In this document: positions 33 to 38,931 of the stretch, piece by piece
How the letters are laid out: every line of letters starts with the position of its first letter
How positions within the stretch are numbered: position 1 is the stretch's first letter
Virus record (IMG/VR): IMGVR_UViG_3300049783_000516
Coordinates: 1-39,340 of that record
Source of the DNA: a virus
Direction: 5' to 3' (one strand)
DNA length: 39,340 nt
Notes under the pieces: model-generated
Seen by the model: the letters and a program-made list of their open reading frames with translations, nothing else
Database searches by the model: none
Told to the model about the DNA's origin: nothing
Translations under genes and position numbers: made by a program

Positions 33-212
33 GTGGGAGAAGTGGATCAGCCCCAAATAGTAGAGTTACCCTCAATGAGGGGCAAAAAATTCTCGAAAAA
101 AATTTCCCAAAAAATATTTCTTCGTCACACAGAGGGTGGTCGAAATAAAACTGCCCCTTTATATAAGGCGGGGGTGGGGGGTCATTTTGTGAACGCTGTT
201 CACAGTGGGAGA

Positions 213-291
213 TAGTTTAACGTTAAACTACTTTGATGAATGTAGTTTAACGTTAAACTATAATGAGGTGAGATAGTTTAACGTTAAACTA
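213..291. promoter_or_regulatory. Three tandem copies of a perfect 18-bp palindrome (operator array)
   Basis: TAGTTTAACGTTAAACTA occurs without a mismatch at 213-230, 243-260 and 274-291. Starts are 30 and 31 bp apart, about three helical turns, so dimeric proteins would bind on one face of the DNA. The second copy runs into a TATAAT at 259-264 on the plus strand, though no good -35 box precedes it. A 14-bp palindrome (tattacatgtaata, 293-306) follows directly. Repeated perfect dyads with helical phasing are typical of repressor or initiator binding sites. No cognate regulator gene was recognised in the window. Confidence 0.7.
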
Positions 292-292
292 T

Positions 293-306
293 TATTACAT
301 GTAATA
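293..306. promoter_or_regulatory. 14-bp palindrome next to the operator array
   Basis: Tattacatgtaata is a perfect dyad directly beyond the third 18-bp palindrome. Its core ACATGT is shared with the TAACATGT sites at 883-1088 and 3143-3152, so it may be a variant site of that second family. A short inverted repeat AGGTA...TACCT (315-333) lies just beyond it. Confidence 0.35.
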
Positions 307-369
307 TAGGATTAGGTACTGTTGTGATACCTATGCCCCTCACGCTCGATATTAGGCCCGCCACGTGGG

Positions 370-747
370 TCACTTGGATTTGGTAGGGTTTGGGTCACGA
401 ACGGGCTGACTTGCCCCCTTGCCGCGCATTTCTGGCAGGTCAACGGATGCCAGACGCCCAAGGCTTTCCGCTACTGCGTCGGACACGGTGCCAGACAATT
501 GCAGGGACATTTCACGTTTGATTGGTGGCCCGTATGCTCGGTCTAGCGCCAATTGAATCAAGCGGGTTTGGTCTCCCACCTTCAAACGTTCGAAGGCTTT
601 GCCGTGCAATAGGTCTGAGAGACGCTGAGCAGCCATCGAGCCACTGTCTTGCAACGTTTGCCATACGTGAGCAGGGATTGTGTCGGGCTTGCCTTCTAAC
701 GGGTTGGTTGCGTCGTCGTCGCGGTTCGTGAACGGTAAGATATCCAT
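370..747 (-). CDS. Putative terminase small subunit (125 aa)
   Basis: A 125-aa minus-strand protein with a strong ribosome binding site (AAGGAAAG about 8 nt before the ATG at 747). The central part, around residues 30-75, is predicted helical. It includes the segment FERLKVGDQTRLIQLALDRA followed by YGPPIKRE, which resembles the helix and DRAYGKP-type motif of small phage proteins that act with the large terminase in DNA recognition for packaging. The C-terminus is Pro/Lys-rich and probably disordered. It is on the same strand as the packaging and virion arm, whose large terminase is cut by the right window edge, which would make the two neighbours on a circular or permuted map. The family match is from memory of short motifs, so a different DNA-binding protein is possible. 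Confidence 0.5.
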   Translation of the reverse strand: MDILPFTNRDDDATNPLEGKPDTIPAHVWQTLQDSGSMAAQRLSDLLHGKAFERLKVGDQTRLIQLALDRAYGPPIKREMSLQLSGTVSDAVAESLGRLASVDLPEMRGKGASQPVRDPNPTKSK

Positions 748-773
748 GCAGCGCTTTCCTTCTTCAAATTGAG

Positions 774-851: not shown

Positions 852-882
852 CTTATTCAATGTTTTCAATGACTTAGCAGTT

Positions 883-1112: not shown

Positions 1113-1142
1113 ATTGAACAATATATTCCCCTCATTTAGGGG

Positions 1143-1351: not shown

Positions 1352-1376
1352 TTCAACTGGCTTGAAAGGCTATGAT

Positions 1377-2720: not shown

Positions 2721-2726
2721 AACAAC

Positions 2727-3040: not shown

Positions 3041-3129
3041 ATCTCACCTAGTAGGTTAATCCCAAAACTACCCCTAATCGGGGGGAAATCCGACCTCGAA
3101 AAATAACTGTAATTTATATAAGAAAACGG

Positions 3130-3212: not shown

Positions 3213-3398
3213 ATGAGAGACCGCGTAAAAACTGTTAAGGAGTATCAGGGGGCGTTCCATAACGCATCATGGTACGACTGCATCATGGCAGTGGCAGATG
3301 TGTGCGATTTGGACAACGACGAACTGGCCGCGCTCGACGCTGACGTTTCGTTCGGGCCAAGCGCTCGTGAATTTACCCTGACTGAGGGGAAAGTATAA
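3213..3398 (+). CDS. Hypothetical protein, 61 aa
   Basis: First gene of the small-gene operon. GAAAGG lies 9 nt before the ATG, in a leader nearly identical to that of the gene at 1377. The protein is mildly acidic with a conserved-looking stretch WYDCIMAVADVCDLDNDELA and no recognised domain. Its last residues, LTEGKV, are encoded by a copy of the dispersed palindrome, whose GAGGGGAAA also serves as ribosome binding site for the next gene (ATG at 3398, sharing one base with this stop). Confidence 0.7.
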   Translation: MRDRVKTVKEYQGAFHNASWYDCIMAVADVCDLDNDELAALDADVSFGPSAREFTLTEGKV

Positions 3399-3610
3399 TG
3401 GATATTAGCACACAACGCGCAATCCACCGCGATGTCTGGGCGCAGCTTTGGGAGCGCGGCGTGGTGCCACTGCGGTTATCTGCCGCCTCGACCTACTGCG
3501 TCGAAGTGCTTACGTTGGATGGTAAGTTTACTGCATACTTTACCCGCATCGAGGGGAAGTATAAGGTGACTGACGTAGTATCCGCGCAAACAGAAAGTGA
3601 GTGTGAATAA
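3398..3610 (+). CDS. Hypothetical protein, 70 aa
   Basis: Its start overlaps the previous stop by one base (TAATG) and it ends with TAATG into the next gene, so translation is coupled on both sides. The 70-aa product has short beta-strand-like segments (TYCVEVLTLDGKFTAYFTRI) and no recognised domain. A degenerate copy of the dispersed palindrome (about 3538-3559) encodes RIEGKY. Confidence 0.7.
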   Translation: MDISTQRAIHRDVWAQLWERGVVPLRLSAASTYCVEVLTLDGKFTAYFTRIEGKYKVTDVVSAQTESECE

Positions 3611-4368
3611 TGGCCGACATTAAAAAGATCAAAGACCGCTTGTCGTCGCTTCTATCACGGGCACAGGATGCTGGCAGTTCTGAGAGCGAGGTCGCCGCAT
3701 GTATGGCGCGGGCGCAAAAGCTGATGGAAGAATTTGGCATCACAGAAGCCGACCTCGACAGCGCTGACGGGGTGACATTCCGCGACTACGAAATCAACGT
3801 CCCTGATGGACGCACCAAGCACGATCCGGTTGTGCGCTATTGCGCGGCAGCGGTAGGACGTTTGACATCTGTGACGTTCTACATCAACAATAAGTATTCC
3901 CCTCACAAAGGGGATGCTTGTGGGATTGTCGCAATCGGAATTGATGCCGATGTAGAATATGCGATGTGGATTTTGAAAAGTCTGCGGGCGTTCATGGACG
4001 ATCAGTGGATCGCATATCGTGACTGGCAGCTTGAGGCTTGTACGCGCAACGAATTGAAGGCTGAGCGTATCGGCTTTATCCGTGGCTATACGGCGCGGGT
4101 AGTAGATCGGATCAACGATATGGTGCGCAAGTACAAAGCCACCGTATCAGGCGGGGTTGGTACTGGCACTGACTTGATCGTGCGCAAGAGTGATCTTGTC
4201 GCGGCTGAAATGGACCGTCGTGGGATTAGTCTGGGTGGCACGGGCAAGTCGATGAGTGGGCGTGGCTATGGATCAGATCATGGCTCTATGGCTGGCGCAC
4301 AAGCGGGCAACAGCGCAGCCTTAGGCCGTGGCGTCGGTCACTCACATGCAGCAATCGGGAGCCGCTAA
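3610..4368 (+). CDS. DUF2786-like protein, 252 aa
   Basis: Residues about 3-45 (IKKIKDRLSSLLSRAQDAGS onward, ending EEFGITEADLD) match the N-terminal helical DUF2786 signature, in which a Lys-rich helix is followed by a conserved KLMEEFGI-type turn. The middle (residues 60-175) is alpha/beta, with the loop PHKGDACG encoded across a copy of the dispersed palindrome. The C-terminus is Gly/Ser-rich and probably disordered. DUF2786 proteins are widespread in phages and bacteria without assigned biochemistry. The gene is coupled to the 70-aa gene by a TAATG overlap. Confidence 0.75.
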   Translation: MADIKKIKDRLSSLLSRAQDAGSSESEVAACMARAQKLMEEFGITEADLDSADGVTFRDYEINVPDGRTKHDPVVRYCAAAVGRLTSVTFYINNKYSPHKGDACGIVAIGIDADVEYAMWILKSLRAFMDDQWIAYRDWQLEACTRNELKAERIGFIRGYTARVVDRINDMVRKYKATVSGGVGTGTDLIVRKSDLVAAEMDRRGISLGGTGKSMSGRGYGSDHGSMAGAQAGNSAALGRGVGHSHAAIGSR

Positions 4369-4396
4369 CGCGGTTCCCCCCACTGAGGGTAAAAAT

Positions 4397-4675
4397 ATGA
4401 CATATGTAATTGAGTTTGACGAGCACAGCCTTGAAGCGACAGCGCTGGCATTGAAAACCATAAATCCTGCGCGCAGCAGTAGCGTGGCGCATATCCGTGA
4501 CATGGTAAACGCTAACATGCACGACGGGTCAACCTCTATGGGCACTGGTGGCTGGGAAGCGGCTGGCTTCTTTCCAAAGGGGCGGGAAGGCGTTATGGTG
4601 GTACGGTTTGCCGTGCAAGCGTATAGCGTTAACAAGTATCTGGAAACGCTTTCCCCTAAGCAAGGGGAAAGCTAA
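4397..4675 (+). CDS. Hypothetical protein, 92 aa
   Basis: The start at 4397 is preferred over an in-frame ATG at 4328 because the latter overlaps the previous gene, while GAGGG from a dispersed palindrome (4373-4393) lies just before 4397. The product is alpha/beta with no recognised domain. It ends in LSPKQGES, encoded by another palindrome copy (4648-4672) whose AAGGGGAAA is the ribosome binding site of the next gene. Start and stop of adjacent genes overlap as TAATG. Confidence 0.7.
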   Translation: MTYVIEFDEHSLEATALALKTINPARSSSVAHIRDMVNANMHDGSTSMGTGGWEAAGFFPKGREGVMVVRFAVQAYSVNKYLETLSPKQGES

Positions 4676-4893
4676 TGAAGCGCAAGCATCGCGTCGTCGT
4701 AGAGATTACTACCAACAAGCCGATCACCGCACGAGCAGCAAGAATAGCGGTGGACCTGCTCCTAGAGCGCGTAGATACGCAAGTCGCGCCGATCTGGGCA
4801 AATGGCAGCAACATCTACGCAGACAAGCTAACCTGCAAAGAGTTTGACAGAGTAATGCGCAAACTTTCCCCGCAGCAAGGGGAAAAACAATGA
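4675..4893 (+). CDS. Hypothetical protein, 72 aa
   Basis: A basic 72-aa protein beginning MKRKHRVVVEITTNKPITAR, with a likely beta-alpha-beta core. It starts within the upstream stop (TAATG) and its last residues LSPQQGEKQ are encoded by a palindrome copy at 4864-4886. The next gene overlaps by 4 bp. No family recognised. Confidence 0.65.
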   Translation: MKRKHRVVVEITTNKPITARAARIAVDLLLERVDTQVAPIWANGSNIYADKLTCKEFDRVMRKLSPQQGEKQ

Positions 4894-5168: not shown

Positions 5169-5455
5169 CCGAGCGTTTGCACTATAGCACAGTGCGTCCC
5201 ATATGTGGGCGCATCAACATGCAGCTTGGCATATCTAAGACAGGTGCGCCACTGGCAGGGCGACGCAACTGGCTTGCGGGAGCGTTGACGCTGGAGAATA
5301 GCGGCTACGGTACTTGGGCAGTAGGACGCGTGACATGCAAGGCTGGCGGCGTCACGGACATATACCGTGGCAAGCTGCGCGACTGCAAAGCGTATCTGGA
5401 CGGTATCGAACACGGCTTGAAACTTACCCTAAAGGAGGGGAAAAATGGGAACTGA
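5165..5455 (+). CDS. Hypothetical protein, 96 aa
   Basis: It starts by ATGA overlap after GAAGGAGAAA, an excellent ribosome binding site. The protein is basic and beta-rich, with GRRNWLAGALTLENSGYGTW in the middle. It ends in LTLKEGKNGN, encoded by a palindrome copy (5422-5444) and running 11 bp into the next gene. Function unknown. Confidence 0.65.
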   Translation: MTERLHYSTVRPICGRINMQLGISKTGAPLAGRRNWLAGALTLENSGYGTWAVGRVTCKAGGVTDIYRGKLRDCKAYLDGIEHGLKLTLKEGKNGN

Positions 5456-5645: not shown

Positions 5646-5679
5646 CGCGGTTTACAACTTACCCTAAAGGAGGGGAATA

Positions 5680-5865: not shown

Positions 5866-6140
5866 CGGAAGGCACATTCGCAGACCGAAAAGTAGGGCGC
5901 TTAACACGTACCGACATGGCGGCAGAGCGCGGAATGATTTACAACGGACAGGGGGATGTCCCGCCGTCTACTGTTTTTATTCCGCGCATATTTCCAGACG
6001 GCAACTCATGGTGCGCACTCTACGGAGACAACCTGCAAGAGGGAGTGGCGGGCTTCGGCCCAACACCGCACAAAGCAATCCTAGATTTTGACTGGAACTT
6101 TGTCAGCCAAACTCTTAATTTTAGAAAGACACCCCTATGA
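5862..6140 (+). CDS. Hypothetical protein, 92 aa
   Basis: Coupled by ATGA overlap at both ends. The middle (FIPRIFPDGNSWCALYGDNL, then GVAGFGPTPHKAILDFD) looks like a small beta fold followed by the GFGxTP-hAixDF pattern. That pattern is common to short phage proteins with a predicted alpha/beta fold. Function unknown. Confidence 0.65.
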   Translation: MTEGTFADRKVGRLTRTDMAAERGMIYNGQGDVPPSTVFIPRIFPDGNSWCALYGDNLQEGVAGFGPTPHKAILDFDWNFVSQTLNFRKTPL

Positions 6141-6655
6141 AAACGGAAACACAAACACGGGCCGACGCCGCAGCCTACATGCGAGAGCATAGGCAAGCGT
6201 GGCGGGCGTCAGGGTTCGCACCTATGTCGTCTATGGTACATGAGGACGACAAGCCTAAGCTGGCGGCGTTTGCTGACGTGACAAAATTTGAAAAATTGTT
6301 GTCGCTCATCAACGCTGACGATAGCGAAGCGATTGACTTGGCCGCAACGCGCAACACACCACGCTTGCCAACCTTCGATATGGTGGAGGACGTAAAAGAC
6401 TTGGCTGAAAAGCAACTACTACTCAACACCACCAAAGGCACGGCAGCGCACGCGCAGTCATTGCTTGGTACGGTGAAAAACTATAGCTCTAAGGCACGCA
6501 AGCACAAGGCTGCTAGTGATGTTGACGAGATGGACGACAAGTCACGCGCCTTGGCTGTAGTGTATGGCAACCTTACGGTGGCGACGTTCAAGCTGGCTGA
6601 CGCCCTAGCGAGGTTTTCCCCTAACTTGGGGGAGGTTTCTGATGGCGGTACATAG
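6137..6655 (+). CDS. Hypothetical protein, 172 aa
   Basis: A predominantly helical protein with a charged Lys/Asp-rich middle (residues 115-140) and no recognised motif. It starts by ATGA overlap. Near the C-terminus a palindrome copy (6613-6638) encodes FSPNLGEV and gives the next gene its GGGGGAGG ribosome binding site. The 14-bp overlap with the next gene indicates coupling. Confidence 0.65.
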   Translation: MKTETQTRADAAAYMREHRQAWRASGFAPMSSMVHEDDKPKLAAFADVTKFEKLLSLINADDSEAIDLAATRNTPRLPTFDMVEDVKDLAEKQLLLNTTKGTAAHAQSLLGTVKNYSSKARKHKAASDVDEMDDKSRALAVVYGNLTVATFKLADALARFSPNLGEVSDGGT

Positions 6656-7004: not shown

Positions 7005-7063
7005 ATAGTACGCCTACCCCGAAATAATCCCCCCATTGAGGGTAAAGAATTGGAGTATGAGAA

Positions 7064-7665: not shown

Positions 7666-7925
7666 TGGTTAAGTACGTCAACAAAAGGACGGGCAAGGAG
7701 GTGAAGCTAACGCCAAAGGCGGAGGCCCGCTTCTTTGACAACCGAGACCCTAGCGCATGGCACGCAACAGAACCAGTGCGGACCACCATAGAGCCACCAT
7801 ATACCAACCGCTACGGGTGTGTGCCTACGGCTTCGTTTGTGCGGTGCCGAGCTACAACAAAAGCAGGAGAGCAATGCCGAGCTTGTGCGCAAAAAGGCAC
7901 GGACTTCTGCGTCTCCCACACATAA
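7665..7925 (+). CDS. DUF5763-like zinc-motif protein, 86 aa
   Basis: The last 30 residues, RCRATTKAGEQCRACAQKGT and FCVSHT, match the CxxxTxxGxxCxxxxxxGxxxCxxH pattern of the small DUF5763-type zinc motif found at the ends of many phage and bacterial proteins. The N-terminal half is basic (KRTGKEVKLTPKAEARFF). It is translationally coupled to the 100-aa gene upstream. A nucleic-acid contact role would fit but is inference. Confidence 0.65.
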   Translation: MVKYVNKRTGKEVKLTPKAEARFFDNRDPSAWHATEPVRTTIEPPYTNRYGCVPTASFVRCRATTKAGEQCRACAQKGTDFCVSHT

Positions 7926-7961
7926 TCCCCTCACTTAGGGTAAGTCTTGAAAGGACAAACT

Positions 7962-8491: not shown

Positions 8492-9828
8492 AGACGCTTA
8501 TGGATATTCAAGCGGAAGATAGTGGTCTAATGTCACAAGGCGGCGACTTGCCTAACTTCTCGTTGGCTGGGACAGGTAAGACCTTGACAGCGCTTGAGGC
8601 GTTCAAGAAGTCTGGTCATAGCCGTGGTCTAGTGCTTGGTCCAGTTATCTCGTTGCAAATGTGGAAAGAGGAAAGCGAGGAATGGCTTGGGTGCAAAACC
8701 CAAGTCCTTCGCTCTGGCCGCGACATCGTTGATCCAAGTGCTGACTTGATAGTAGCTCCTTACGACCTAGCAAGTGGGTCGCAGCGCAGCGCTCTATACA
8801 AGACATTTACCCCCACTGAGGGGAAGACGTCAGCGCTGATCTTGGACGAGAGCGACCGACTGCGCAGGGCTACATCGAAGCGGGCTTGCGCGGTCTACGG
8901 CAACCATACTGACGGGCGCGGTGGGTTTATGGAGAACCACGATCAGGTGTGGCACATGACAGGCAACCCTGTGTACCGCTTCCACGACGACCTGTGGCCT
9001 ATGCTGCGGGCTATGTATCCCGAAGTGCTTGAGAAGTATTCATCGCTAGAGTTTGAGCAGTTTGTGCGTAACTTTTGCGTCACTAAGCTAAAGCAATTCA
9101 ACAAGCGGATGCAGCCTAAGCTGACTATCGTACGTTCGCAAAGCGAGGCGGTGATCTATCACATTCTGTATAAAGAGATTGGCGCTATTCGGCGACACGA
9201 AGCACCAGACCTGCCTGAGTTGGTCGAGAGTACGTTGCAGCCTAAGCTAGGCGCAGTGCCAGCGGAATACGGCAAGCTAGTCAACAAGATGACCGAGCAA
9301 GCCTTGCTCAAAGCATTGGTGACAAGCAACGACGATGGCGAGATAGATATGCAACACGTATGGCAAGCCGTGGCGCTAGCTAAAGTGAAGGGCGCTGCCG
9401 AGTACATCGAAGACTGCTGCAAGCAATCGCCTGTCCTAATAGGGGTGTGGCACAATAGCGTAGGTCAGGCGTACTATGAGGAACTGACTAAGGCTGGTCT
9501 CAAGGTGCGGCGGGTCTATGGTGCAACACCGGACAGGGAGCGAGAGGAAATCAGAGACCTCTTTAACGCTGCCGAAATAGATGTTATTGTCGGGCAGATG
9601 CAAGCGATGGGTGTTAGCTGGAACTTGCAAAAATCGTCACACCGTGTTATCATAGCACAAGACCATTTCAGCCCGTCAGTCATTGAGCAATTCTATAAGC
9701 GGGTATGGCGTAAGGGGCAAGAGAGTAAGACCTACCTAGACTTCCTATCATCAGAGCATCCGCTCGACCGTATCATAGCGAAGGTACGGAAATCTCGTCA
9801 ACGCTCGCAGGAGAAATCACTTGGCTAA
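8488..9828 (+). CDS. SF2 DNA helicase / SNF2-like ATPase, 446 aa
   Basis: Superfamily 2 helicase of about the size seen in podovirus replication modules. Walker A is LAGTGKT at residues 26-32 and motif II is LILDESDR with D120-E121. The C-terminal RecA-like domain has Q-AMGVSWN (motif V region) and motif VI RVWRKGQ near residue 415, which is the SNF2-type arginine finger. The N-terminus is short, starting just before motif I, at a GTG that overlaps the 43-aa gene. A palindrome copy (8806-8826) encodes TPTEGK directly before motif II. It probably unwinds or remodels DNA during replication or recombination. Confidence 0.9.
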   Translation: MKTLMDIQAEDSGLMSQGGDLPNFSLAGTGKTLTALEAFKKSGHSRGLVLGPVISLQMWKEESEEWLGCKTQVLRSGRDIVDPSADLIVAPYDLASGSQRSALYKTFTPTEGKTSALILDESDRLRRATSKRACAVYGNHTDGRGGFMENHDQVWHMTGNPVYRFHDDLWPMLRAMYPEVLEKYSSLEFEQFVRNFCVTKLKQFNKRMQPKLTIVRSQSEAVIYHILYKEIGAIRRHEAPDLPELVESTLQPKLGAVPAEYGKLVNKMTEQALLKALVTSNDDGEIDMQHVWQAVALAKVKGAAEYIEDCCKQSPVLIGVWHNSVGQAYYEELTKAGLKVRRVYGATPDREREEIRDLFNAAEIDVIVGQMQAMGVSWNLQKSSHRVIIAQDHFSPSVIEQFYKRVWRKGQESKTYLDFLSSEHPLDRIIAKVRKSRQRSQEKSLG

Positions 9829-9992: not shown

Positions 9993-10169
9993 ATGTCTGA
10001 TACATGCTGCAAAAAATTTGAAGATGCTTTAGAAGACAGCACGCTAGAGCGGGATGCTGACGGTAGTTATAACGTGAACGGCTGTTGCGGTGGCGGCTGC
10101 TATGTGCTGTCTGAGGTTAACTATTGCCCGTACTGCGGTACTAAACTTACCCTAATGGAGGGGGAATAA
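9993..10169 (+). CDS. Small zinc-ribbon-like protein, 58 aa
   Basis: The ribosome binding site is AAGGAGGGGAATAA of the palindrome copy just upstream. The product has six Cys plus CPYCGTKL near the C-terminus, the classic knuckle of a zinc ribbon. The partner Cys residues are CC at 5-6 and the CCGGGC cluster in the middle. Small CPYCG proteins are common in phages and often of unknown function. The last residues LTLMEGE are encoded by the next palindrome copy (10145-10168). Confidence 0.65.
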   Translation: MSDTCCKKFEDALEDSTLERDADGSYNVNGCCGGGCYVLSEVNYCPYCGTKLTLMEGE

Positions 10170-11120: not shown

Positions 11121-11903
11121 ATGACTGTAATGTATGAAAAAGTAAACATCCTAGCGCCTATGCTTGACCAAGCTATGTCTCAGCGGGTGGTGACGTGGCC
11201 GACTTATGACGGTAAGTTCCTCAACCGCGCCGACTTCGTGTCGTCGTCTGAGGTGGGCAAGTGCGCTCGGCAAATCTGGTTCAGCAAGAACCTTCCCCCC
11301 GTTGAGGGTATGTTTAAGTGGGGGTTTGCACAGCGCGGGCATGGGCACGAAGCGTGGGTAGTGGAGAAGCTGCGCACACTGGACAACGAGTTCGAGTACA
11401 TGCACGTAGGGGATGAGCAAGTCTCATTTCACGCTGGCTATCAGAGCGGAACTCCTGACGGGGTGTTTGTGAAAGGCATCAGCCAGTGGTGGCTGTTCGA
11501 GCATAAGAGCTATGACCCGCGCTCCAAAGTAAGTAACTTCCCGAAGCCTGAGCATATCAAGCAGACGGTACAGAATATGGACTTAGTAGAAGAATGCCTC
11601 GGCGTCACGTTCGATGGCGCACTGCTAGTCTACAGTAACGCATCCGACTTCTCATTGACATATGAGTTTTGGATTGACCGACGTTCCCCTGAGGTAGGGG
11701 AAATGATGATGGCCTTAGAAACGCGCGCAGAGGCCATTATGAAAGCAACCAGCGCAGATGAAGTTGAGCCTGAGGGTCTGCATACTGGGGGTTGTAAGCT
11801 ATGTGCTTATGGTTCTCAGTGTTCTGCGGCGATGACGGCAAGCAAAAATGAAAGAGACCGCTATGACAAAATCGCAAGGCACGGCTCCAAATTCTTTGGA
11901 TAA
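11121..11903 (+). CDS. Cas4/RecB-like PD-(D/E)XK nuclease with Fe-S cysteines, 260 aa
   Basis: The nuclease core is GTPDGVFV (D113) followed by LFEHKSYD (E127-x-K129), with Q148 in the next helix, the PD-(D/E)XK pattern. RGHGHE near residue 75 is the upstream conserved His region. C48 and the triad C225, C228, C234 (GGCKLCAYGSQC) reproduce the 4Fe-4S arrangement of Cas4 and AddB-type exonucleases. It probably resects DNA ends in phage recombination and replication. The start at 11121 is set by the promoter at 11065-11093, which rules out the upstream GTG at 11061. Two palindrome copies encode LPPVEGM and RSPEVGE. Confidence 0.85.
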   Translation: MTVMYEKVNILAPMLDQAMSQRVVTWPTYDGKFLNRADFVSSSEVGKCARQIWFSKNLPPVEGMFKWGFAQRGHGHEAWVVEKLRTLDNEFEYMHVGDEQVSFHAGYQSGTPDGVFVKGISQWWLFEHKSYDPRSKVSNFPKPEHIKQTVQNMDLVEECLGVTFDGALLVYSNASDFSLTYEFWIDRRSPEVGEMMMALETRAEAIMKATSADEVEPEGLHTGGCKLCAYGSQCSAAMTASKNERDRYDKIARHGSKFFG

Positions 11904-12192: not shown

Positions 12193-12356
12193 AAGTTGTT
12201 GTTAGCAGCGCCAATGAGGGCAGCATCAATGAGGTTATCCTTACTAAGGAGACCAGAGCTTCCCTTGTTAGTGTGACGCTAGGTGAGATAACTGTTACCG
12301 TGCGTCACCATGAGCTAGAGGCAGCGCTGGTCGCTGTAAGACATTCCCCTCACTAA
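12189..12356 (+). CDS. Hypothetical protein, 55 aa
   Basis: The ATG overlaps the previous stop (ATGA). The frame runs to a TAA at 12354-12356 that is itself part of a palindrome copy (12342-12364), giving the end RHSPH. The product is a beta-rich peptide (MKVVVSSANEGSINEVILTK). It is short, so its reality rests on the overlap and the coupled start. Confidence 0.5.
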   Translation: MKVVVSSANEGSINEVILTKETRASLVSVTLGEITVTVRHHELEAALVAVRHSPH

Positions 12357-12445
12357 GGGGGAAACATATACCCAACGACTGCGCGGCTAACTGCGGTTAT
12401 TTGGGTTACTGGCTTTAGGGGACGGGTCAGGGCCGACAGGTTTAA

Positions 12446-13338: not shown

Positions 13339-13382
13339 ATACTACCCCCCACTGAGGGTAACTTTAACCAACGAGGTACACC

Positions 13383-15453: not shown

Positions 15454-15935
15454 CGACGCCTAAAATAGATGAGCTAGTCTTTAGTATGTCGGGGCAACTG
15501 AAAGCTATATCTAAGCAACGCCCACGGACAGGTAAGGCTGGTCACTTCTTTACGCCTAAGCGCACACGAGACTACGAACGGGCCGTGCGTGATATGGCAG
15601 AGGCGTCAGTATGGGGGCCACCAGTAGACTTCCCTGTGCGAATGGACATTGAGATAATACACAAGGTGCCTAAAAGCTGGCCTAAGTGGAAAGTGTGGGC
15701 GGCACTGAACGGGCTAATCTTCCCCTCAGTAGGGGATTTAGACAACAAAGTAAAGGCCATTAGCGACGCGTTCAATGGCGTAGTGTATCTGGACGACGTG
15801 CAGATATGCCGAGATGAAAACAGTCAAGTGTATGGGGCAAAAGAACTCTTGACTGTCAAAGTAACTAGGGCTGGTTACACACTCACAGAAGCAAGGCGGC
15901 TATACGATGAAAACTTTAGTAGAGGCGGCGCTTGA
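15450..15935 (+). CDS. RusA-type Holliday junction resolvase, 161 aa
   Basis: GDLDNKVKAISDAFNGVVYL followed by DDVQICR is the signature of RusA-family endodeoxyribonucleases: DxDN on the first helix, then a DD pair after the NG turn. The upstream half (KQRPRTGKAGHFFTPKRTRD) supplies the basic DNA-binding region. The length fits the family. It would cut branched DNA before packaging. ATGA overlap with the polymerase stop marks the start and coupling; TTG at 15435 is rejected. A shortened palindrome copy (15719-15738) encodes FPSVGD, so its final Asp is the first catalytic Asp. Confidence 0.9.
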   Translation: MTTPKIDELVFSMSGQLKAISKQRPRTGKAGHFFTPKRTRDYERAVRDMAEASVWGPPVDFPVRMDIEIIHKVPKSWPKWKVWAALNGLIFPSVGDLDNKVKAISDAFNGVVYLDDVQICRDENSQVYGAKELLTVKVTRAGYTLTEARRLYDENFSRGGA

Positions 15936-24192: not shown

Positions 24193-24626
24193 TAGTAAGT
24201 CTCCTTATACATGACGGAGATTACGTGCTTCCAACCGTCGTTTTTCAGCGCCCTCGGCCAGCCTGTGCGGCCAGAAATAGCCATGTACTTGCAGCCGAAG
24301 TTCTTAGCGAGTTTGTTGATTTCTTTTTCTGCGTCCTTGATCGCCTGCATCTCTCCGCAGGCAACGAAGCAGTGGTAGATGCTGTAGTGCGGAAACTGCT
24401 CGAACTGCATGATAACCGCGCAGCCCTCAAACTTATAGAAGTGTCGCTCTCCACGAAGGATGCTAGCTACAATATCGTTGAACGAATACTGGTTGTCTAC
24501 GTGCGCCATAGCCGCCTCAATGTGTACTTGCCATTCCAGCAAGTCACGCATCAACTCGATAACGCTTCCCGCGACGTTTGCGGTATCAGCAGTTTTACCC
24601 TCACTGGGGGGATTATGGGCATTCAT
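24192..24626 (-). CDS. T7 gp13-like / GNAT-fold virion assembly protein, 144 aa
   Basis: The C-terminal 80 residues (CAVIMQFEQFPHYSIYHCFV, then AEKEINKLAKNFGCKYMAIS, GRTGWPRAL and DGWKHV) match the phage family often annotated as acetyltransferase-like or internal virion protein A. Its hallmark is GRxGWxRxL...GWK after an alpha/beta GNAT-type core. In T7 the gp13 protein is needed for virion assembly near the ejection proteins, which fits its location here. Acetyl-CoA binding is not evident. The gene has its own probable promoter at 24720-24692. A palindrome copy directly after the start encodes PPSEGK. Confidence 0.7.
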   Translation of the reverse strand: MNAHNPPSEGKTADTANVAGSVIELMRDLLEWQVHIEAAMAHVDNQYSFNDIVASILRGERHFYKFEGCAVIMQFEQFPHYSIYHCFVACGEMQAIKDAEKEINKLAKNFGCKYMAISGRTGWPRALKNDGWKHVISVMYKETY

Positions 24627-24723: not shown

Positions 24724-25788
24724 CTAAATAATCTTAGCGAGATAGCCTTGGAAAGAGCCAGAAACAACGCTAGCGTTGGTATCTGTGTTGGCTACTAACC
24801 GAATGTCAGAGTTAGGAGGAACAATTAAGTACGGCTCGAAATGTTCTTCAAACACACTTGTTTGACTGGTTAGCGAGTATTTACCGATAAGAGGTCGGAA
24901 AACACCACCGAGTTTCCGCACCTCTAAGCTAAAGTCTGCCGCAACCGCTGGCGGCGAAGCTCGGGTAACTGCAAAGCTGGCCTTCGTTATGAAAAAATAG
25001 TCGTCGTTGCTGATAGTAGCCGCAGCCTTAAAGCTCTGTGTCTCGCCGTTAGTGCCTTCTATGCTGATAACCGCTTTGGTGATGTCCGTAGGCTTCCCCC
25101 CAGTGAGGGGAGTATTCTGATAGACGAAGACATCGCCAGCAATCGTTGAGCCGTTGTTGTCATAAGCCTGCGATACACGAGCGCACGGCACTGGCAGAGG
25201 TACGCGGGTCTGCCCTTGTAGCGTCACTAACTGGACCCCAAAGGTAAACCGCTCGTCATAACCAGTCAGTCCGTTTGACGTATGGTACTCTACGGCAAGC
25301 TCTTGTGTATCTGCGGCGTCTGTACTAGAGATGCTGTCGATGGAGTTAGTACCGCTTACGGGATACACCTCATTCTCTAAACCAGCTTCTTTGCCAAGCT
25401 GCCACACAGTAGCGAACCCATCAGTGATGTCTAAGTCGGCGTGGTTGCCAAACTCAAACAGGGTCTTAGCTTTTTGAACAATAGACACTGTGTCGCCAAA
25501 CTCTTTGAGGACTTCTTGCTCTGCCATAAATGCTGCAAAATCCATACCAATCGGCCTCCATACGCCATCTTCTGAGTAGACTACTGATTTCTGTACTGGG
25601 TCATAGAGCAAGACGCCGCTCTGCGCGGCCCGCTCCATCGCGTTAAGGCTCTTGTGCGGCAACAGGACCGGCTGCGGATTAGTGATACCAGATATGGCTA
25701 CGTTAGCTAGCGAATACTCATAGAACTGAGCAGCCCATTGATTGATGTCTCTGAACCCTGATGGGTTTGGTGGTACGCGGTTAGCCAT
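24724..25788 (-). CDS. Tail/virion structural protein, 354 aa
   Basis: Starts MANRVPPNPSGFRDINQWAA, ATG sharing a base with the upstream stop. The N-terminal half is helical and the C-terminal half beta-rich with regular strands (residues 190-354, including YFFITKASFAVTRASPPAVA and FEPYLIVPPNSDIRLVANTD), which suggests a jelly-roll or receptor-proximal beta domain. It lies between the gp10-like tail protein and the ejection proteins. I did not recognise a named family; homologues are expected in HMO-2011-like phages. A palindrome copy (25093-25114) encodes TPLTGGK. Confidence 0.65.
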   Translation of the reverse strand: MANRVPPNPSGFRDINQWAAQFYEYSLANVAISGITNPQPVLLPHKSLNAMERAAQSGVLLYDPVQKSVVYSEDGVWRPIGMDFAAFMAEQEVLKEFGDTVSIVQKAKTLFEFGNHADLDITDGFATVWQLGKEAGLENEVYPVSGTNSIDSISSTDAADTQELAVEYHTSNGLTGYDERFTFGVQLVTLQGQTRVPLPVPCARVSQAYDNNGSTIAGDVFVYQNTPLTGGKPTDITKAVISIEGTNGETQSFKAAATISNDDYFFITKASFAVTRASPPAVAADFSLEVRKLGGVFRPLIGKYSLTSQTSVFEEHFEPYLIVPPNSDIRLVANTDTNASVVSGSFQGYLAKII

Positions 25789-27332: not shown

Positions 27333-27401
27333 TTTGTACCCTCAGTTAGGGGAAGTTTTACAGCCGGTATTAGTCCGACCCTTTATGTCGCATCGTTTCG
27401 C

Positions 27402-30992: not shown

Positions 30993-31002
30993 TTTATTAC
31001 CC

Positions 31003-31230
31003 TCAGTTAGGGGAAGCTGCCGCGCAGCCCCGCTCTAGTTGTCCAAGCAGCATAGCCCCCACCAACCGTGAGGACCGTCCACCATCAAGAAGCAGAGCCT
31101 TTGGAAGCTCTGCCCGTGTTTCTATCGTACCGTCACAAACCGCCGCATTCAGGGGCCTCTGGTTCAAAGCCTGCCAAGCGGCACAACTCGGCAGTAACAG
31201 CAGCGTCATCGCTAAGATCAACATTTTCAT
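31003..31230 (-). CDS. Outer-membrane spanin (Rz1-like lipoprotein), 75 aa
   Basis: MKMLILAMTLLLLPSCAAWQ is a lipoprotein signal peptide with lipobox LPSC, cleaved before Cys16. The mature peptide is about 60 residues with further Cys residues and an Ala-rich end. It overlaps the upstream inner-membrane spanin gene by 98 bp in another frame, the partly embedded layout of Rz/Rz1 pairs. The two proteins would fuse inner and outer membranes at the end of lysis. The last codons and stop (SPN-stop) are part of a palindrome copy (30996-31017) that then acts as ribosome binding site of the tail fibre. Confidence 0.75.
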   Translation of the reverse strand: MKMLILAMTLLLLPSCAAWQALNQRPLNAAVCDGTIETRAELPKALLLDGGRSSRLVGAMLLGQLERGCAAASPN

Positions 31231-32573: not shown

Positions 32574-32601
32574 GCGCTTTCCTTTCCCCTAACTGGGGGG
32601 A

Positions 32602-33276
32602 TTATTTACGTCGAGTTTGTGGTACGTGGTGGTGTGGCTGCATCTGTAAGGGCGATCCGCCAAAGCGGAGCAGGTGTTTGTCCTCGTACCCAGCGCTCTC
32701 TAAAGCATCTGCCATGAGGCTATTGTATGACTGCAAGCGGTCATCTTCTCTCAAGAAGATCGCGCAGTGTTTGAACACTGCGTACACGTACAGATCAAGG
32801 AAGTCCGCCTCTAACCACGAGGTATCGTCTGTTTGAAAGTCTGGTACTGCGGCACGGTATTCCAGAGCAAACGCGCCAGCGTTAGTGGCGCTGAACGGCC
32901 CGACCAAGTACAGCGTATTAGCGGCGGCGCTACGCTGAGCGTAGTAGACCGGCTCAATGTAGACGCTTTTAGTAGCTACGCGGGTGCTTTGAACGGCGCT
33001 AAAAGTGCTGTTCTTCATACTGCCTTGACGTACCTGACGTTCTGGCTGTTGATTAGTCAGAGAGATCATCTGGTAGAAGTCGGTGGGCAACACAAAGTCC
33101 TCGACCTCTGGGGCAATGACAGCAGTGGCCTCCCGCCGCTGAATATCCAGCTTACGGTTTAGCTCACTGTCGGCCATACGGATCAGATTATCGAGGTTGT
33201 TCGCCAGATCAGTGTCGTTCTGACGCCACAGCATACCAGTCAGATACGTCTTAAATTCTGAGTATGTCTGTGCCAT
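32602..33276 (-). CDS. Head-tail adaptor (SU10-type), 224 aa
   Basis: AQTYSEFKTYLTGMLWRQND, then LIRMADSELNRKLDIQRREA, and VLPTDFYQMISLT are the conserved helical head and beta segment of the small adaptors that bind the portal in SU10/phiEco32-type podoviruses (gp4/gp6-like). YVYAVFKHCAIFLREDDRLQ near residue 170 is the conserved C-terminal helix. The C-terminal 15 residues are basic/His-rich. It starts one base into the upstream stop codon. Confidence 0.75.
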   Translation of the reverse strand: MAQTYSEFKTYLTGMLWRQNDTDLANNLDNLIRMADSELNRKLDIQRREATAVIAPEVEDFVLPTDFYQMISLTNQQPERQVRQGSMKNSTFSAVQSTRVATKSVYIEPVYYAQRSAAANTLYLVGPFSATNAGAFALEYRAAVPDFQTDDTSWLEADFLDLYVYAVFKHCAIFLREDDRLQSYNSLMADALESAGYEDKHLLRFGGSPLQMQPHHHVPQTRRK

Positions 33277-34011: not shown

Positions 34012-34032
34012 CTTCCCCTCATGGAGGGGAAG
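34012..34032 (-). terminator. Hairpin after the major capsid gene
   Basis: CTTCCCCT (34012-34019) pairs with AGGGGAAG (34025-34032) around a 5-nt loop, 18 nt after the capsid stop. It is a perfect-stem member of the dispersed palindrome family. In the minus-strand transcript it is followed by TCTTCTTC rather than a pure U-tract. It may partly terminate or stabilise the capsid message. Confidence 0.5.
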
Positions 34033-35070: not shown

Positions 35071-36213
35071 CTACTTAATCAGGGTTCTAGCGATGTCTTT
35101 TGTCTTGCCCGATGCACGGGCATTGTCCATCACTGCTCGTTGCGCATCAGCGGTTTTGCGAGCCGTAGTTTTCAAAGCCGTCGCGCCTGAGCGCAACTTA
35201 CGTGGACGTTTGGAGGCTTGGTTGTCCAAGTTTTTCACAGTGTTCGCCTTCCGGTCCTTGGGTGTTCGTGCTGTTTTGAACTTAGCGAGGTCGTAGATCA
35301 TACGATACAAACGGTGATCGCTAGCGTTCTGAATTTCTTCGGCTGAGTACCCGTATTCTTCCATAGCCAATGTGGCCATAGATTTGAGCAGCGCTGGGGC
35401 GATTTCTCGGTCCTGTAGCTCAGGTATGGCAGCGACTAGCGCTGTCGTCTGTTGCTCTCGGTACGTCTTAATGTCTTCGGATAGGGCCTCTTGCTGTTGT
35501 TGCACCAACTTTCGTATTGCCGCCCTGCCCTCAGTTACTCGGTGCTGATCTGCTTCATAAGCGTCAATCTGCGCGAGGTACTGTTGCGGGTTGCTCTTGC
35601 GTAGAGCGGCGTCTGGCTTTGCGACGGCTGGCTGAAAAACAACGCTTTCCATGCCGTTGACCGTCTTAATAAGGCTATTATGAGCAACGCTGAATTGCTC
35701 AAGAAGCATAGTGTGATCCGCTTGCGCTTGCTTGCGGCTCTCAGTGGCTTCCTTTAGGCGCTTTTCGATTGCGCCCTCTCCTGACAAGGCTTTTTTGGCG
35801 TCAGCAATACTGCGTAGAACAATCTCACCGTCAATTTTAACTTCTATCTGGTCATCATCGTTGACCTGAAAGAAACCATCTTCGTCGGCTTCTTGTTCGT
35901 CGGCGTCGTCATTGCCTGCATCGTCTTCCTCGTCTGCTTCGTCTACTTCGGCTACTTCGCTACCGTCCTCAGTTTCGAGTTCGGCGGCGTCGCCATCAAC
36001 TTCTTCAAGATCGTTATCGTCGGCCTCGTCAACGCTGTTCTCGCCTTCTTCGGAGTTACCCTCATCAAGGGGAAGTTCTTCGTGCTGAGAGCGTGGTTCA
36101 CGCGCGGTGGGACCGCTAGCGTTTGGCGCTGTTTGGTCTGCTGGGTCATTGGGCTGAACGAGCAGCTTTGCAATGTCATGCAGCGATTTAGCGGTTTGTT
36201 GTGTTCCGGCCAT
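35071..36213 (-). CDS. Capsid assembly scaffold protein, 380 aa
   Basis: Residues 40-125 are extremely acidic (VDEADDNDLEEVDGDAAELE and similar), followed by long coiled-coil helices (residues 160-260), a helical C-terminus, and a basic end rich in Lys and Arg (KASKRPRKLRS then KTTARKTADA). This polarity (acidic N-terminus, basic C-terminus that contacts the shell) is typical of phage scaffolds. It lies between portal-proximal genes and the capsid. A palindrome copy (36055-36075) encodes PLDEGNS. Confidence 0.8.
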   Translation of the reverse strand: MAGTQQTAKSLHDIAKLLVQPNDPADQTAPNASGPTAREPRSQHEELPLDEGNSEEGENSVDEADDNDLEEVDGDAAELETEDGSEVAEVDEADEEDDAGNDDADEQEADEDGFFQVNDDDQIEVKIDGEIVLRSIADAKKALSGEGAIEKRLKEATESRKQAQADHTMLLEQFSVAHNSLIKTVNGMESVVFQPAVAKPDAALRKSNPQQYLAQIDAYEADQHRVTEGRAAIRKLVQQQQEALSEDIKTYREQQTTALVAAIPELQDREIAPALLKSMATLAMEEYGYSAEEIQNASDHRLYRMIYDLAKFKTARTPKDRKANTVKNLDNQASKRPRKLRSGATALKTTARKTADAQRAVMDNARASGKTKDIARTLIK

Positions 36214-36415: not shown

Positions 36416-38456
36416 TGGCGGCTTGCTTTCTCTCAATGAGTTTGTTTAAGCGGTCTTCGCCCATAGCCCGTAGCTCGATAACACGGTCTTGAGCCATCTG
36501 GTCCCGCTTAATATCCATCTCCTCGGCATCCTTGATTGCTTTGTATTGCAAGTCAAGCTCCTTCATCCGAGCAGTGCTCATAATCTCAGTCTGTCGCAGC
36601 TTGCCCTTGCCTTGCTCGATCTGCAAGAGTGCAGTAGTTGGGTCTGGTGGCGCGTTCTTTTGTGCAGCTTGTTGCTCTGCTGCACGAGCCTCTGCCAACT
36701 TCGCCTCCATAGGCGGAGTGATGATGCTAAAGTACCGGCCTGGGTCTCTCATGCCACCGAGTTCAACAAGGTCTTCCAAGGTGTTATACATCTGAGAGAG
36801 ACTTGTGAACGGGTTGTCAAGGCCCATAGTTTGAATGATTTGCTCTTGTTTTGACAAGATGAAGCCAAGTGTTGCCTGCTTTTGTTCATGGCTAGCAGTA
36901 CCAAGTCCCACATTAGGCTCACACGCCAAGTTAGGATCAAACATACTGATGTCAATAGGAATGATAGCACCTTTGGTCCTCACAATCTGGATACGATCCA
37001 TATGACGAATTGACAGGCGAAGAACTTTTCTAAACACCCCCATGAGACCAGTTTCGACAATGTTGCGCGCCATAAGCTCGACTTGCCCTTGGCTCATCTG
37101 GATAGTATTCATCACCGCGTTCTTATCGGTGGATTGCAACGCATCAGGGTCCAAGCCTGTAGCGGCCTTGGTAATGCCAACACGCTGCTCTGTGTCGTTC
37201 TCAAGGTACTCTAGGAACGGGATTAAGGCCCCACCAGTAAACGGAATGTCTATGATCTGAATAGCAGGAGTGCCGCGTGTCTTAATTGGGGCACCGACGG
37301 CGTTATTCATCAAGTCTGAGAAGTCTGTGTTCTGCGGATCGCTCGCCATGCGCGGGTTGTTAGCCATGTGCGCATTGTCGATGATAGCACGCAGAATAGA
37401 TGTCTCGTTGTCCTGCATTTCGATAGTGATATCAGCCAGAGAGCGCCCAATGACCGTATATGGCAATGGGTCTTGCTGCACTAGGTCTATGCAGTAGTCT
37501 TCAATCTCATAATGGTCGATATAGTCGTATGAGGTCCCGCCCAGATAGAAGCAGTAGCGGCGCTCTTGGCCGTCACCCTCTAAATCGAACTTGCAATAGA
37601 CCTCAGTGAGCAAAATCTCCTTTTGCAGCAGGTCATCGCTATCAGTATCGCTCGCGTCAACCGCGTAGCCACGGCGGGAGCGGGATTGGTCGCTGGCGTT
37701 CTTGCTTTCGGGATCAGTCCCAACAAGTTCCCCCCAGTTAGGGTAATCTAGGCCCATTTCGATGGCCTGCGCCACCTTGATAGACCTATGATGTCCATGC
37801 ACCTTAGCAAGCTCTAGGGTAGACGCGTTACGAGAACAGAAAAACTCATAGACAGGAAAGTCTTCTATCTGAATAGTACCGTTACGCTCGTACTTATAGC
37901 CTTCTACCTCGTAGAGATCAGCAAACTCGTCGCCATCATCACCAGCTTCGACCTCTGTGACCTCGATATCTGGTGCGTTTTTGTAACCTTCGACTTCTTC
38001 CTCAGTCAGCCCAGTTGCTTTGAAATAGACGGGCATCGGTTCTTCTTCCCACCACGTCTTGATAGGGCCGATCTTCAATTTCAGCGCTTGGTCAACAGCG
38101 TTAGAGAGGATGCGGTAGCCGCCAGAAGCCGTAAACTGTTGGTTGACGAACAACGCCTGCTGTTCTAGGAACGCGGCGTGCTTAATGTCATTAGGAATGT
38201 ACTCTACGGGCTTGCGTGCTTGCAGCAGTACCCGCATGATGTTAGGTTTAGCGGCGCGGATGATGTCCCGCACTTCCGTCTTAACCGCATTAGACCGCCC
38301 CTCCTCGGTAGGAAGGTCGCAGCCGCCAGCGTAGTACCGCTCGGCCCGCGCCCAGTCGTCCTCGAACTCAGACCACATGAAGTTGATAGCTTCTTCGACC
38401 TCGGATTGAAGCTCCGCTACTGCGTCGTCTAGCGTGATGCCAAATTCGTTTGCCAT
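36351..38456 (-). CDS. Portal protein, 701 aa
   Basis: N-terminal FGITLDDAVAELQSEVEEAI, then EDDWARAERYYAGGCDLPTE and NAVKTEVRDIIRAAKPNIMR, is the wing and stem opening of podovirus portals. DLVQQDPLPYTVIGRSLADI near residue 335 and the helix RGTPAIQIIDIPFTGGALIP near 415 fit the crown/clip region. The C-terminal 130 residues are a long charged coiled coil (barrel). Size is close to the P22-type portals. It would form the dodecameric DNA entry channel. A palindrome copy (37727-37747) encodes PNWGEL. Confidence 0.85.
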   Translation of the reverse strand: MANEFGITLDDAVAELQSEVEEAINFMWSEFEDDWARAERYYAGGCDLPTEEGRSNAVKTEVRDIIRAAKPNIMRVLLQARKPVEYIPNDIKHAAFLEQQALFVNQQFTASGGYRILSNAVDQALKLKIGPIKTWWEEEPMPVYFKATGLTEEEVEGYKNAPDIEVTEVEAGDDGDEFADLYEVEGYKYERNGTIQIEDFPVYEFFCSRNASTLELAKVHGHHRSIKVAQAIEMGLDYPNWGELVGTDPESKNASDQSRSRRGYAVDASDTDSDDLLQKEILLTEVYCKFDLEGDGQERRYCFYLGGTSYDYIDHYEIEDYCIDLVQQDPLPYTVIGRSLADITIEMQDNETSILRAIIDNAHMANNPRMASDPQNTDFSDLMNNAVGAPIKTRGTPAIQIIDIPFTGGALIPFLEYLENDTEQRVGITKAATGLDPDALQSTDKNAVMNTIQMSQGQVELMARNIVETGLMGVFRKVLRLSIRHMDRIQIVRTKGAIIPIDISMFDPNLACEPNVGLGTASHEQKQATLGFILSKQEQIIQTMGLDNPFTSLSQMYNTLEDLVELGGMRDPGRYFSIITPPMEAKLAEARAAEQQAAQKNAPPDPTTALLQIEQGKGKLRQTEIMSTARMKELDLQYKAIKDAEEMDIKRDQMAQDRVIELRAMGEDRLNKLIERKQAANDDATRRNGTPSSEPKTATGE

Positions 38457-38459
38457 GTG

Positions 38460-38651
38460 TTACCCGATCTTTGAGTTTTTCCGAGTAACATTCAGCGCTG
38501 AGCGGCCCGTCGCCGTTTGCTTCGGCTCCATCTTACCAGCAATGTCGCGGTTCATATCGACCCGCGCTTTGTTATTCATGTAGCCGCCGTTGCCGCCGTT
38601 CGTCGTGGAGTTATCAGGCACGTCTTCGCGTGTCATCATGCTACGCTTCAT
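38460..38651 (-). CDS. Small virion-module protein, 63 aa
   Basis: A low-complexity, Asn/Gly/Lys-rich basic protein (TTNGGNGGYMNNKARVDMNR, end LNVTRKNSKIG). It starts by 4-bp overlap with the 75-aa gene and ends 3 bp before the portal gene, so it is part of one tightly packed unit. Function unknown; it and its neighbour share the same basic, disordered character. Confidence 0.6.
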   Translation of the reverse strand: MKRSMMTREDVPDNSTTNGGNGGYMNNKARVDMNRDIAGKMEPKQTATGRSALNVTRKNSKIG

Positions 38652-38875
38652 TGTGCTGTTCCTCGCTTCAAGCCGCCGTTGGTGTAGTGAGATGCACCAG
38701 AGGAAGTACCGCTATTGCGGCCTCCTGAGGGGCCTTTGCGATCCGACTTCATGGCGGCAGACATAACGTCGCCGTGCATGTTGGCACCAGATGAGCCGCT
38801 TTGCTTGAATACGCCGCTAGGTCCCGCTTCCGGTGTTGCAGGCATAGGATTTTTAATCCCTCTAATTCCGGCCAT
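38648..38875 (-). CDS. Small virion-module protein, 75 aa
   Basis: Excellent ribosome binding site AAGGAGA before the ATG at 38875. A Gly/Ser/Lys-rich disordered protein (FKQSGSSGANMHGDVMSAAM then KGPSGGRNSGTSSGASHYTN). First gene after the large terminase and just downstream of the hairpin at 38888-38931. Function unknown. Confidence 0.6.
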   Translation of the reverse strand: MAGIRGIKNPMPATPEAGPSGVFKQSGSSGANMHGDVMSAAMKSDRKGPSGGRNSGTSSGASHYTNGGLKRGTAQ

Positions 38876-38887
38876 TATTTTCTCCTT

Positions 38888-38931
38888 AAAAATCCCCTAC
38901 TCGTCCCCTCAGTGAGGGTAAAAGCAGGGGA
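38888..38931 (-). terminator. Nested hairpin with U-tract after the large terminase gene
   Basis: On the minus strand TCCCCT (38931-38926) pairs with AGGGGA (38898-38893). Inside lies a palindrome copy (38902-38923) forming a second hairpin, and TTTTT (38892-38888) follows directly. This is a credible intrinsic terminator or attenuator; the next ribosome binding site starts a few bases further. It would limit transcription from the terminase into the portal unit. Confidence 0.5.

Follow-up and report, generated by a model that had tools for sequence, protein, structure and literature searches.

Dispersed palindromes in a clade of uncultured podovirus-like phages, candidate recognition sites for a dimeric phage protein

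The IMG/VR record IMGVR_UViG_3300049783_000516 (39,340 bases; analysed here as a whole, and called the window or W) comes from a podovirus-like virus and carries a family of short imperfect palindromes that is dispersed over the genome. The left arm, on the + strand, contains early and replication genes, whose products include an SNF2-like helicase, a Cas4-like nuclease, a family A DNA polymerase, RusA and a Prim-Pol/AAA protein. The right arm, on the - strand, encodes the portal, scaffold, major head and other virion proteins and an amidase. Their point of convergence lies near 17.9 kb. The large terminase gene is truncated by the end of the record (39037-39340): sequence comparison matched 39037-39303 to the C-terminus of a 478-amino-acid terminase-like protein of the related record G001, and, judged against G001, roughly 1.2 kb, or more, is absent. 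The major head protein matches 319 phage records, every one of them less than 60% identical, and the best-listed match is Sinorhizobium phage phiM5 (43%). Relatives were collected by a capsid protein search that found 468, of which the best 80 loci were used. A second capsid protein search, of genome contigs, gave seven loci, with identities of 37-52% and, for a fragment, 62%. The labels G001-G010, G015-G017 and the L-numbers denote the related records and loci compared with W.

The consensus TTMCCCTCANTGAGGGKAA, with up to three mismatches, has 39 matches in W, against a mean of 0.01 and a maximum of 1 in 100 dinucleotide shuffles. A symmetric weight matrix found 50 positions, or 44 sites once overlapping registers were merged; on 100 shuffles it gave a mean of 0.53 unmerged positions and never more than three. 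A sequence-only reading of this DNA had proposed a genuine palindrome family and named a shuffled-genome control; the control is almost empty, so the family stands and chance is ruled out as its origin. The count of about 44 given in that reading is reproduced by the matrix, but its figure of one copy per gene holds only as an average, with 1.63 sites per kb in the early arm and 0.72 in the remainder. Also, the weak site at 806-824 is probably a separate C-run/G-run hairpin beside the small-terminase-like gene, a version of which was seen by eye beside that gene in all six compared genomes, and 43 is therefore the safer count.

When spacers of 3-12 bp were allowed between TTMCCC and GGGKAA, 21 of the 25 zero-mismatch pairs had a gap of 7 bp. 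The arms are the most conserved part, as had been claimed, but the centre is not free to vary: approximately 0.7-1 bit of information is found at each of positions 7 and 9 and at each of the mirrored positions. Two members, at 15720 and 23371, are out of register by one base. Both arms have sites, and these occur at gene junctions, in intergenic gaps and inside genes, as the same reading had described. They are as follows:

66-84, palindrome TTACCCTCAATGAGGGGCA
806-824, weak palindrome, probably the hairpin on the small-terminase (TerS) side instead of a member
1126-1144, palindrome at the putative early promoter, candidate operator; counterpart in 6/6 genomes
1306-1324, palindrome, putative early leader; counterpart in 6/6 genomes
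2731-2749, palindrome, intergenic
3069-3087, palindrome, intergenic, weaker
3373-3391, palindrome, centre 16 nt before start codon 3398; conserved in G006, G001
3540-3558, palindrome, intragenic; conserved in G006
3897-3915, palindrome, intragenic; conserved in G006, G001
4374-4392, palindrome, gene junction
4651-4669, palindrome, centre 15 nt before start 4675
4866-4884, palindrome, centre 15 nt before start 4890
5424-5442, palindrome, centre 12 nt before start 5445; conserved in G006, G001
5659-5677, palindrome, centre 12 nt before start 5680
6616-6634, palindrome, gene junction; conserved in G006
7027-7045, palindrome, intergenic
7925-7943, palindrome, gene junction
8807-8825, palindrome, intragenic, SNF2-like helicase gene; conserved in L109
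9970-9988, palindrome, centre 14 nt before start 9993
10147-10165, palindrome, centre 15 nt before start 10171; conserved in L109
11293-11311, palindrome, intragenic; conserved in L109, G001, G002
11684-11702, palindrome, intragenic; conserved in L109, G001
12344-12362, palindrome, gene end
13343-13361, palindrome, intergenic
13834-13852, palindrome, DNA polymerase gene; conserved in L109, G001, G002 (there the 18 bp version)
14697-14715, palindrome, DNA polymerase gene; conserved in L109, G001, G003
15720-15738, palindrome, register shifted by one base, RusA gene; conserved in L109, G001, G003, G004
16321-16339, palindrome, primase gene; conserved in L109, G001, G002, G003
17618-17636, palindrome identical to the consensus, primase gene; conserved in L109, G001
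18877-18895, palindrome, intragenic, late arm; conserved in L109
19889-19907, palindrome, intragenic; conserved in L109, G001, G002
20960-20978, palindrome, intragenic
21913-21931, palindrome, intragenic; conserved in L109
23371-23389, palindrome, register shifted by one base, intragenic; conserved in L109, G004
24061-24079, palindrome, intragenic; conserved in L109, G001, G002
24595-24613, palindrome near gene start; conserved in L109, G001
25094-25112, palindrome, intragenic
27336-27354, palindrome, centre 13 nt before start 27332 (- strand)
30997-31015, palindrome, centre 14 nt before start 30992 (- strand)
32584-32602, palindrome, centre 20 nt before start 32573 (- strand)
34013-34031, palindrome, downstream of the capsid gene
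36056-36074, palindrome, intragenic; conserved in G006
37728-37746, palindrome, portal gene; conserved in G006
38903-38921, palindrome, upstream of start 38875 (- strand)

Among the best 80 loci, the nearest relatives have the W-type pattern at high density, and in the remaining ones it is absent or almost absent. An open search for over-represented inverted repeats revealed that several close relatives without it carry a version of their own. According to per-genome matrices, W and G006 share the consensus given above and that of G001 is similar. The consensus is TTCCCCTAATTAGGGGAA in G002, AGTCCCCACTAGTGGGGACT in G003 and TAGTCCCTANCGNTAGGGACTA in G004, as opposed to the W version TTACCCTCACTGAGGGGAA; it is AAGTCCCC(CG)NN(CG)GGGGACTT in G005, TGTCCCCCANTGGGGGACA in L016 (7 sites) and TTCCCCTCTAGAGGGGAA in G015 and G016. 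The clade thus contains at least five versions. A TCCC core is common to all of them, and what varies is the flanks and the gap: the half-site is TTMCCC, TTCCCC, AGTCCCC or AGTCCCT, depending on the lineage, and the spacer is 5, 6 or 7 bp. Spacer and flank differ even between relatives whose capsid proteins are 67-84% identical. The near-complete relatives have 53 (G001), 45 (G002), 42 (G003) and 52 (G004) sites. Partial records contained 11 (G005), 23 (G006) and 25 (L109) sites, and merged counts of 36, 30 and 10 were obtained for the partial records G015, G016 and G017 respectively.

Reversed-sequence controls, which are valid where a fixed pattern or matrix is tested, were used for such comparisons. 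L111 has 12 sites by pattern and none in the reversed sequence. In L018 (7.1 kb, capsid 70% identical), TCCCC-N5-GGGGA with up to two mismatches gave 10 matches and one in the reversed sequence; this locus probably carries a 5-bp-spacer version, although the W-type and open inverted-repeat searches showed none there. Among ten records searched for TCCCCN5-8GGGGA, six had matches and G007-G010 had none. Exact inverted 5-mers in distant relatives revealed local repeats only, with no dispersed palindrome family. Inverted repeats of other kinds are clustered near one end of the sister loci L029, L030, L033 and L047, and GCCAG-N7-CTGGC, GCCAG-N6-CTGGC and TAGGC-N3-GCCTA were rejected as dispersed families for this reason. 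A sister group in which no palindromes were found (G007, with L103-L105, and sister loci L022-L046) has the 8-mer CGCTGACT dispersed over the genome. It occurs 39 times in G007, on both strands, against 8 (order-3 Markov) or 18 (order-4 Markov) expected copies; 27 are sense, 8 antisense and 4 outside large genes. Twelve of 16 loci have 7-24 copies against 1.3-3.7 expected, the other four have 0-2, and W has none. This 8-mer is possibly an oriented counterpart of the palindromes, or else a Chi-like or codon effect.

Conservation in place was examined for intragenic W sites whose gene could be aligned with an orthologue, and a site scored by the orthologue's own matrix had to lie within three codons. 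A site was found at the homologous position in 7/7 cases in G006, 15/16 in L109, 13/20 in G001, 5/14 in G002, 3/15 in G003 and 2/11 in G004, with less than one expected by chance in each. For example, the site at 13834 in the polymerase gene reads TTACCCTCACTTAGGGGAA in W and TTCCCCTCATTAGGGGAA in G002. These results indicate that the sites are inherited and turn over with distance, and that both half-site and spacing track the consensus of each genome. A mobile palindromic element should be present at some orthologous loci of close relatives and absent from others, but of the 23 intragenic W sites in the comparison, 22 have been retained in G006 or L109. The suggestion of a tiny mobile element is accordingly not supported: sites stay at homologous positions and their sequence changes in place.

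The 24 compared intragenic sites fall in all three reading frames (4, 11 and 9). Selection on them was measured at fourfold-degenerate third bases, with sites picked on W alone and only codons with identical first two bases counted. Between W and G006 plus L109, these bases are identical at 46/47 positions in the arms and at 946/2094 elsewhere in the same genes (Fisher p=6e-15); between W and G001 the figures are 19/28 and 509/1549 respectively (p=0.0003). The intragenic arms are thus under strong purifying selection at the level of the DNA. The sequence-only reading had argued that the copies cannot come from codon use, and this holds, as all three frames are used and degenerate positions are frozen. 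The outcome named there as fatal to the family, copies that are simply conserved protein motifs, was looked for in the orthologues and was not what they contain.

Mirrored arm positions make fewer Watson-Crick matches than the shuffled expectation in 7/7 genomes (W, G001-G004, L109 and G006; z -0.8 to -2.7), although part of this deficit is expected from the selection of sites by total score. At position 3, only 20 of the 44 sites in W are paired and 24 are unpaired. Compensatory covariation of the arms, the mark of an RNA hairpin, was seen in none of these seven genomes. The lack of covariation argues that RNA hairpins are not what is selected, and it is the behaviour of two independent half-sites of a dimer. 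Four single copies can fold weakly, at -6.1 to -8.8 kcal/mol, and 7 to 30 of 200 shuffles fold equally well. Rfam has no match anywhere in W. The earlier idea of a processing signal or stem-loop is thus not supported.

The distribution of the sites is more even than random. The coefficient of variation of the spacing in the five near-complete genomes is 0.73, 0.52, 0.59, 0.57 and 0.49, against 0.96-0.98 at random (p 0.02 for W; 0/5000 simulations for the other four). The early arm is denser than the remainder in W (p=0.009) and G003 (p=0.04). An ATG-initiated frame begins 9-24 nt after the site centre at 14/44 sites in W (7.6 expected), 15/53 in G001 (8.3), 8/45 in G002 (6.8), 9/42 in G003 (6.3) and 19/52 in G004 (8.1). 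At sites that precede starts, the GAGGGG of the right arm can double as a Shine-Dalgarno sequence. An identical 19-mer, TTACCCTAAAGGAGGGGAA, which contains AAGGAGG, occurs at three W sites (5424, 5659 and 9970; 10147 is also listed). Its copies are centred 12-14 nt before a start codon, so that Shine-Dalgarno sequence and palindrome are merged.

In the interval that separates the first large early gene from the small-terminase-like gene, 6/6 genomes (W, G001-G004 and G006) have one palindrome at the putative early promoter and another downstream; a small open frame separates the two in G002 and G003. Promoter-like hexamers with modest scores adjoin the first palindrome in W, G002 and G006; in G003 and G004 they flank it. 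The leader of W contains a further element:

1180-1207, + strand, GGGC..GCCC inverted repeat followed by boxA-like CGCTCTTTGAAA (CGCTCTTTGA), early leader, candidate antitermination element

A boxA-like GYTYTTTGA lies downstream of the first palindrome in 5/6 genomes (not G002). A G-run/C-run inverted repeat precedes it by pattern match in W, G001 and G003, and by eye in G004 and G006. The boxA consensus given for gamma-proteobacteria in PMC5725501 is GYTCTTTAANA. When the boxA-like sequence is compared with it, one fixed base differs in each of W, G001 and G004, two differ in G003, and G006 has three such differences. The two leader inverted-repeat hairpins tested fold no better than shuffles (z -1.0 and -0.4). 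The arrangement suggests, and does no more than suggest, that early transcription by the host RNA polymerase is antiterminated through an rrn-type leader carried by the phage.

Other repeats lie upstream of this leader. Three tandem copies of TAGTTTAACGTTAAACTA, spaced by 30-31 bp, occupy 213-304, between the start of W and the small-terminase-like gene, and look like iterons or a packaging site. The divergent non-coding region at 880-1124 contains several palindromes that resemble TAACATGTTA, as well as a direct repeat of 33 nt (1018-1050 and 1092-1124), which make it a possible origin or site of a second regulator.

Two early genes of W are candidates for the source of a binding protein:

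6137-6655, + strand, 172-amino-acid early protein with homologues in palindrome-bearing records, best candidate binder
1362-2720, + strand, first early gene, directly after the two leader palindromes, alternative candidate binder

Homologues of the 172-amino-acid protein were found in nine records (W, G001-G004, G006, G015, G016 and L111), all of them palindrome-bearing. A profile of this protein, searched against 243 sequences, reached beyond those nine only to G007, weakly (E 0.004). Several replication proteins are also conserved across the clade, and conservation alone therefore does not single this protein out. AlphaFold predicted a helical structure (mean predicted local distance difference test score 82) in which residues 25-38 are extended and less certain. 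As a ribbon-helix-helix protein it was rejected: an apparent likeness to ribbon-helix-helix antitoxins, which took in the G007 homologue, found no support from PF11455, PF01402, Pfam, PDB or fold searches; PF11455 also matched nothing in four bacterial genomes, an uninformative result. Small ribbon-helix-helix-like proteins, two in G002 (18780-19122) and one, below cut-off, in G004 (6373-6597), are unlikely to be a common binder, with no match in W, G001 or G003. The product of 1362-2720 gave a low-confidence structure model and no fold match. The DUF2786/DUF7168 protein (3610-4368) is conserved, but belongs to a phage-wide family, has no convincing solved relative and was rejected. The product of 6137-6655 is, on present comparisons, our best guess for the binding protein.

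The evidence excludes chance, protein motifs and mobile elements as the source of the family. Fixed spacing, selection on DNA, arms that do not covary, even spread, a site at the putative early promoter and retuning in place fit dispersed operators for a dimeric binder. The palindromes are thus somewhat more probably than otherwise sites at which a sequence-specific protein encoded by the phage recognizes double-stranded DNA. This protein would bind as a symmetric dimer, with a half-site around TCCC read by each subunit, and one phage-encoded trans-acting factor would lie behind both the family and its retuning. The bound protein may block or gate the host RNA polymerase, with an operator at the early promoter and dispersed stoperator-like roadblocks elsewhere, perhaps opposed by the antitermination element in the early leader. 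Transcriptional silencing by the sites is what we infer, and the regulatory signal proposed earlier agrees with such a possible role. Tentative, and considerably less secure than dimer binding itself, is the fuller picture of a palindromic stoperator network in a clade with no recognisable lysogeny module. Here one dimeric protein of an undescribed family would use an early operator and 40-50 roadblocks on both arms, opposed by an rrn-like boxA leader, and its specificity, including half-site spacing, would have switched several times with the sites following in place.

Several observations weigh against operators of this kind. The enrichment in the early arm is not significant in G001, G002 and G004 (p<0.05 in 2/5 genomes), and that before start codons is approximately twofold in W, G001 and G004 but hardly present in G002 and G003. 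Degenerate bases in W and G002 show no difference (8/20 in arms, 406/1285 elsewhere, p=0.47), the consensus having moved there. The candidate promoter elements beside the leader site are weak, their geometry varies among genomes, and a standard promoter scan of the W leader region gave one promoter-like site against 1.8 in shuffles. Searches of Pfam, PDB sequences and PDB folds gave no significant match to the 172-amino-acid protein, and a weak homologue of it occurs in G007, where no palindrome family was found. A tyrosine integrase (PF00589) was found in 0/7 records, in a search that did not cover serine integrases or partition genes; HTH_3 (PF01381) gave nothing over cut-off in seven records and one weak match in G010, other helix-turn-helix and regulator families not being searched for. 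A lysogenic repressor is therefore not evident.

This lack of a lysogeny module in the two family searches, the more even than random spacing in 5/5 genomes, the coverage of both arms and the many sites deep within genes would also suit a genome-organising protein of the phage (nucleoid-like, bridging, partition or packaging) that uses the palindromes as anchor sites, with even spacing, not transcription, as what counts. We regard this as possible but doubtful, because relatives share site positions and not density alone, sites are enriched just before start codons in 3/5 genomes, the early arm is denser in W and G003, and the putative early promoter has a site in 6/6 genomes. It is unlikely that the phage exploits a host DNA-binding protein. 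The consensus does vary among phages whose hosts may differ, but a factor common to related hosts should change less than spacer and flank do between relatives with such similar capsids. RNA stem-loops, acting in translational control through the right arm as Shine-Dalgarno sequence or in RNA processing, are quite improbable: GAGGGG stands at ribosome-binding distance from many starts and the tested copies do fold, but the arms lack covariation, over half of the W sites are unpaired at position 3, intragenic copies are strongly conserved and Rfam is silent. Tiny mobile or recombination elements, which would account for genome-wide dispersal, have very little left in their favour given sites kept and retuned in place, and nothing in the analysis speaks for a recombination signal. 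Peptides such as TEGK recur at some copies, as codon usage or a conserved protein motif would predict; the three frames, the intergenic copies and the frozen degenerate positions refute this explanation, whose probability is negligible.

Literature searches turned up no description of this palindrome element, most subscription papers being outside their reach, and the accessible parts of PMC4490671 and PMC10386132 contain nothing on it. If the favoured reading in terms of a dimeric binder is correct, these uncultured podovirus-like phages hold a palindromic network with at least five consensus versions in one clade and many sites retuned in place. Such a network would be a natural record of a regulator and approximately 45 sites shifting specificity together, a long-standing question of regulatory evolution, and the family of the binding protein may be one not yet described.

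The analogues offered by the sequence-only reading, the promoter-bearing stem-loops of T-even phages and the Rickettsia palindromic elements, are likewise palindromic and repeated. They are RNA structures or mobile insertions, and fit poorly with the results on covariation, position and selection. The C1 operators of phage P1 are repressor sites that share the dispersal over a phage genome, but they are asymmetric, fewer and tied to promoters. To our knowledge, the genome-wide operator networks described in phages are those of cluster A mycobacteriophages, which have asymmetric sites.

In cluster A phages such as L5 and Bxb1, 20-30 short sites per genome, a minority of them in promoters, are described in PMC6550527 and PMC9283540. 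These stoperators block elongation, and their consensus varies from phage to phage in correlation with the repressor. The sites are asymmetric 13-mers, bound by a monomer and oriented with transcription, in promoters and short intergenic gaps (PMC6550527, PMC9283540). As far as these sources go, the W clade is similar in having at least 20 dispersed sites of one consensus (44 in W and 42-53 in four relatives) and a consensus that diverges in concert over the genome between relatives. As to an early-promoter site, 6/6 genomes have a palindrome in the same part of the early leader region, where the promoter itself is weakly predicted. In contrast, sites of the W clade are symmetric, 18-20 bp long and often intragenic, and neither a tyrosine integrase nor an HTH_3 repressor was detected (two families, seven records). 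For these reasons of symmetry, intragenic position and undetected lysogeny module, the family is not classed with the cluster A stoperators. The SPBRE of the Bacillus prophage SPbeta comprises approximately ten sites with a 15-bp motif in promoter regions, bound by a recombinase-like repressor, and in these respects is unlike the palindromes described here (PMC10516654). The likeness is that SPBRE was also a repeated phage element recognized in silico first, as the palindromes are here, and was later shown to be the site of the master repressor MrpR (PMC10516654).

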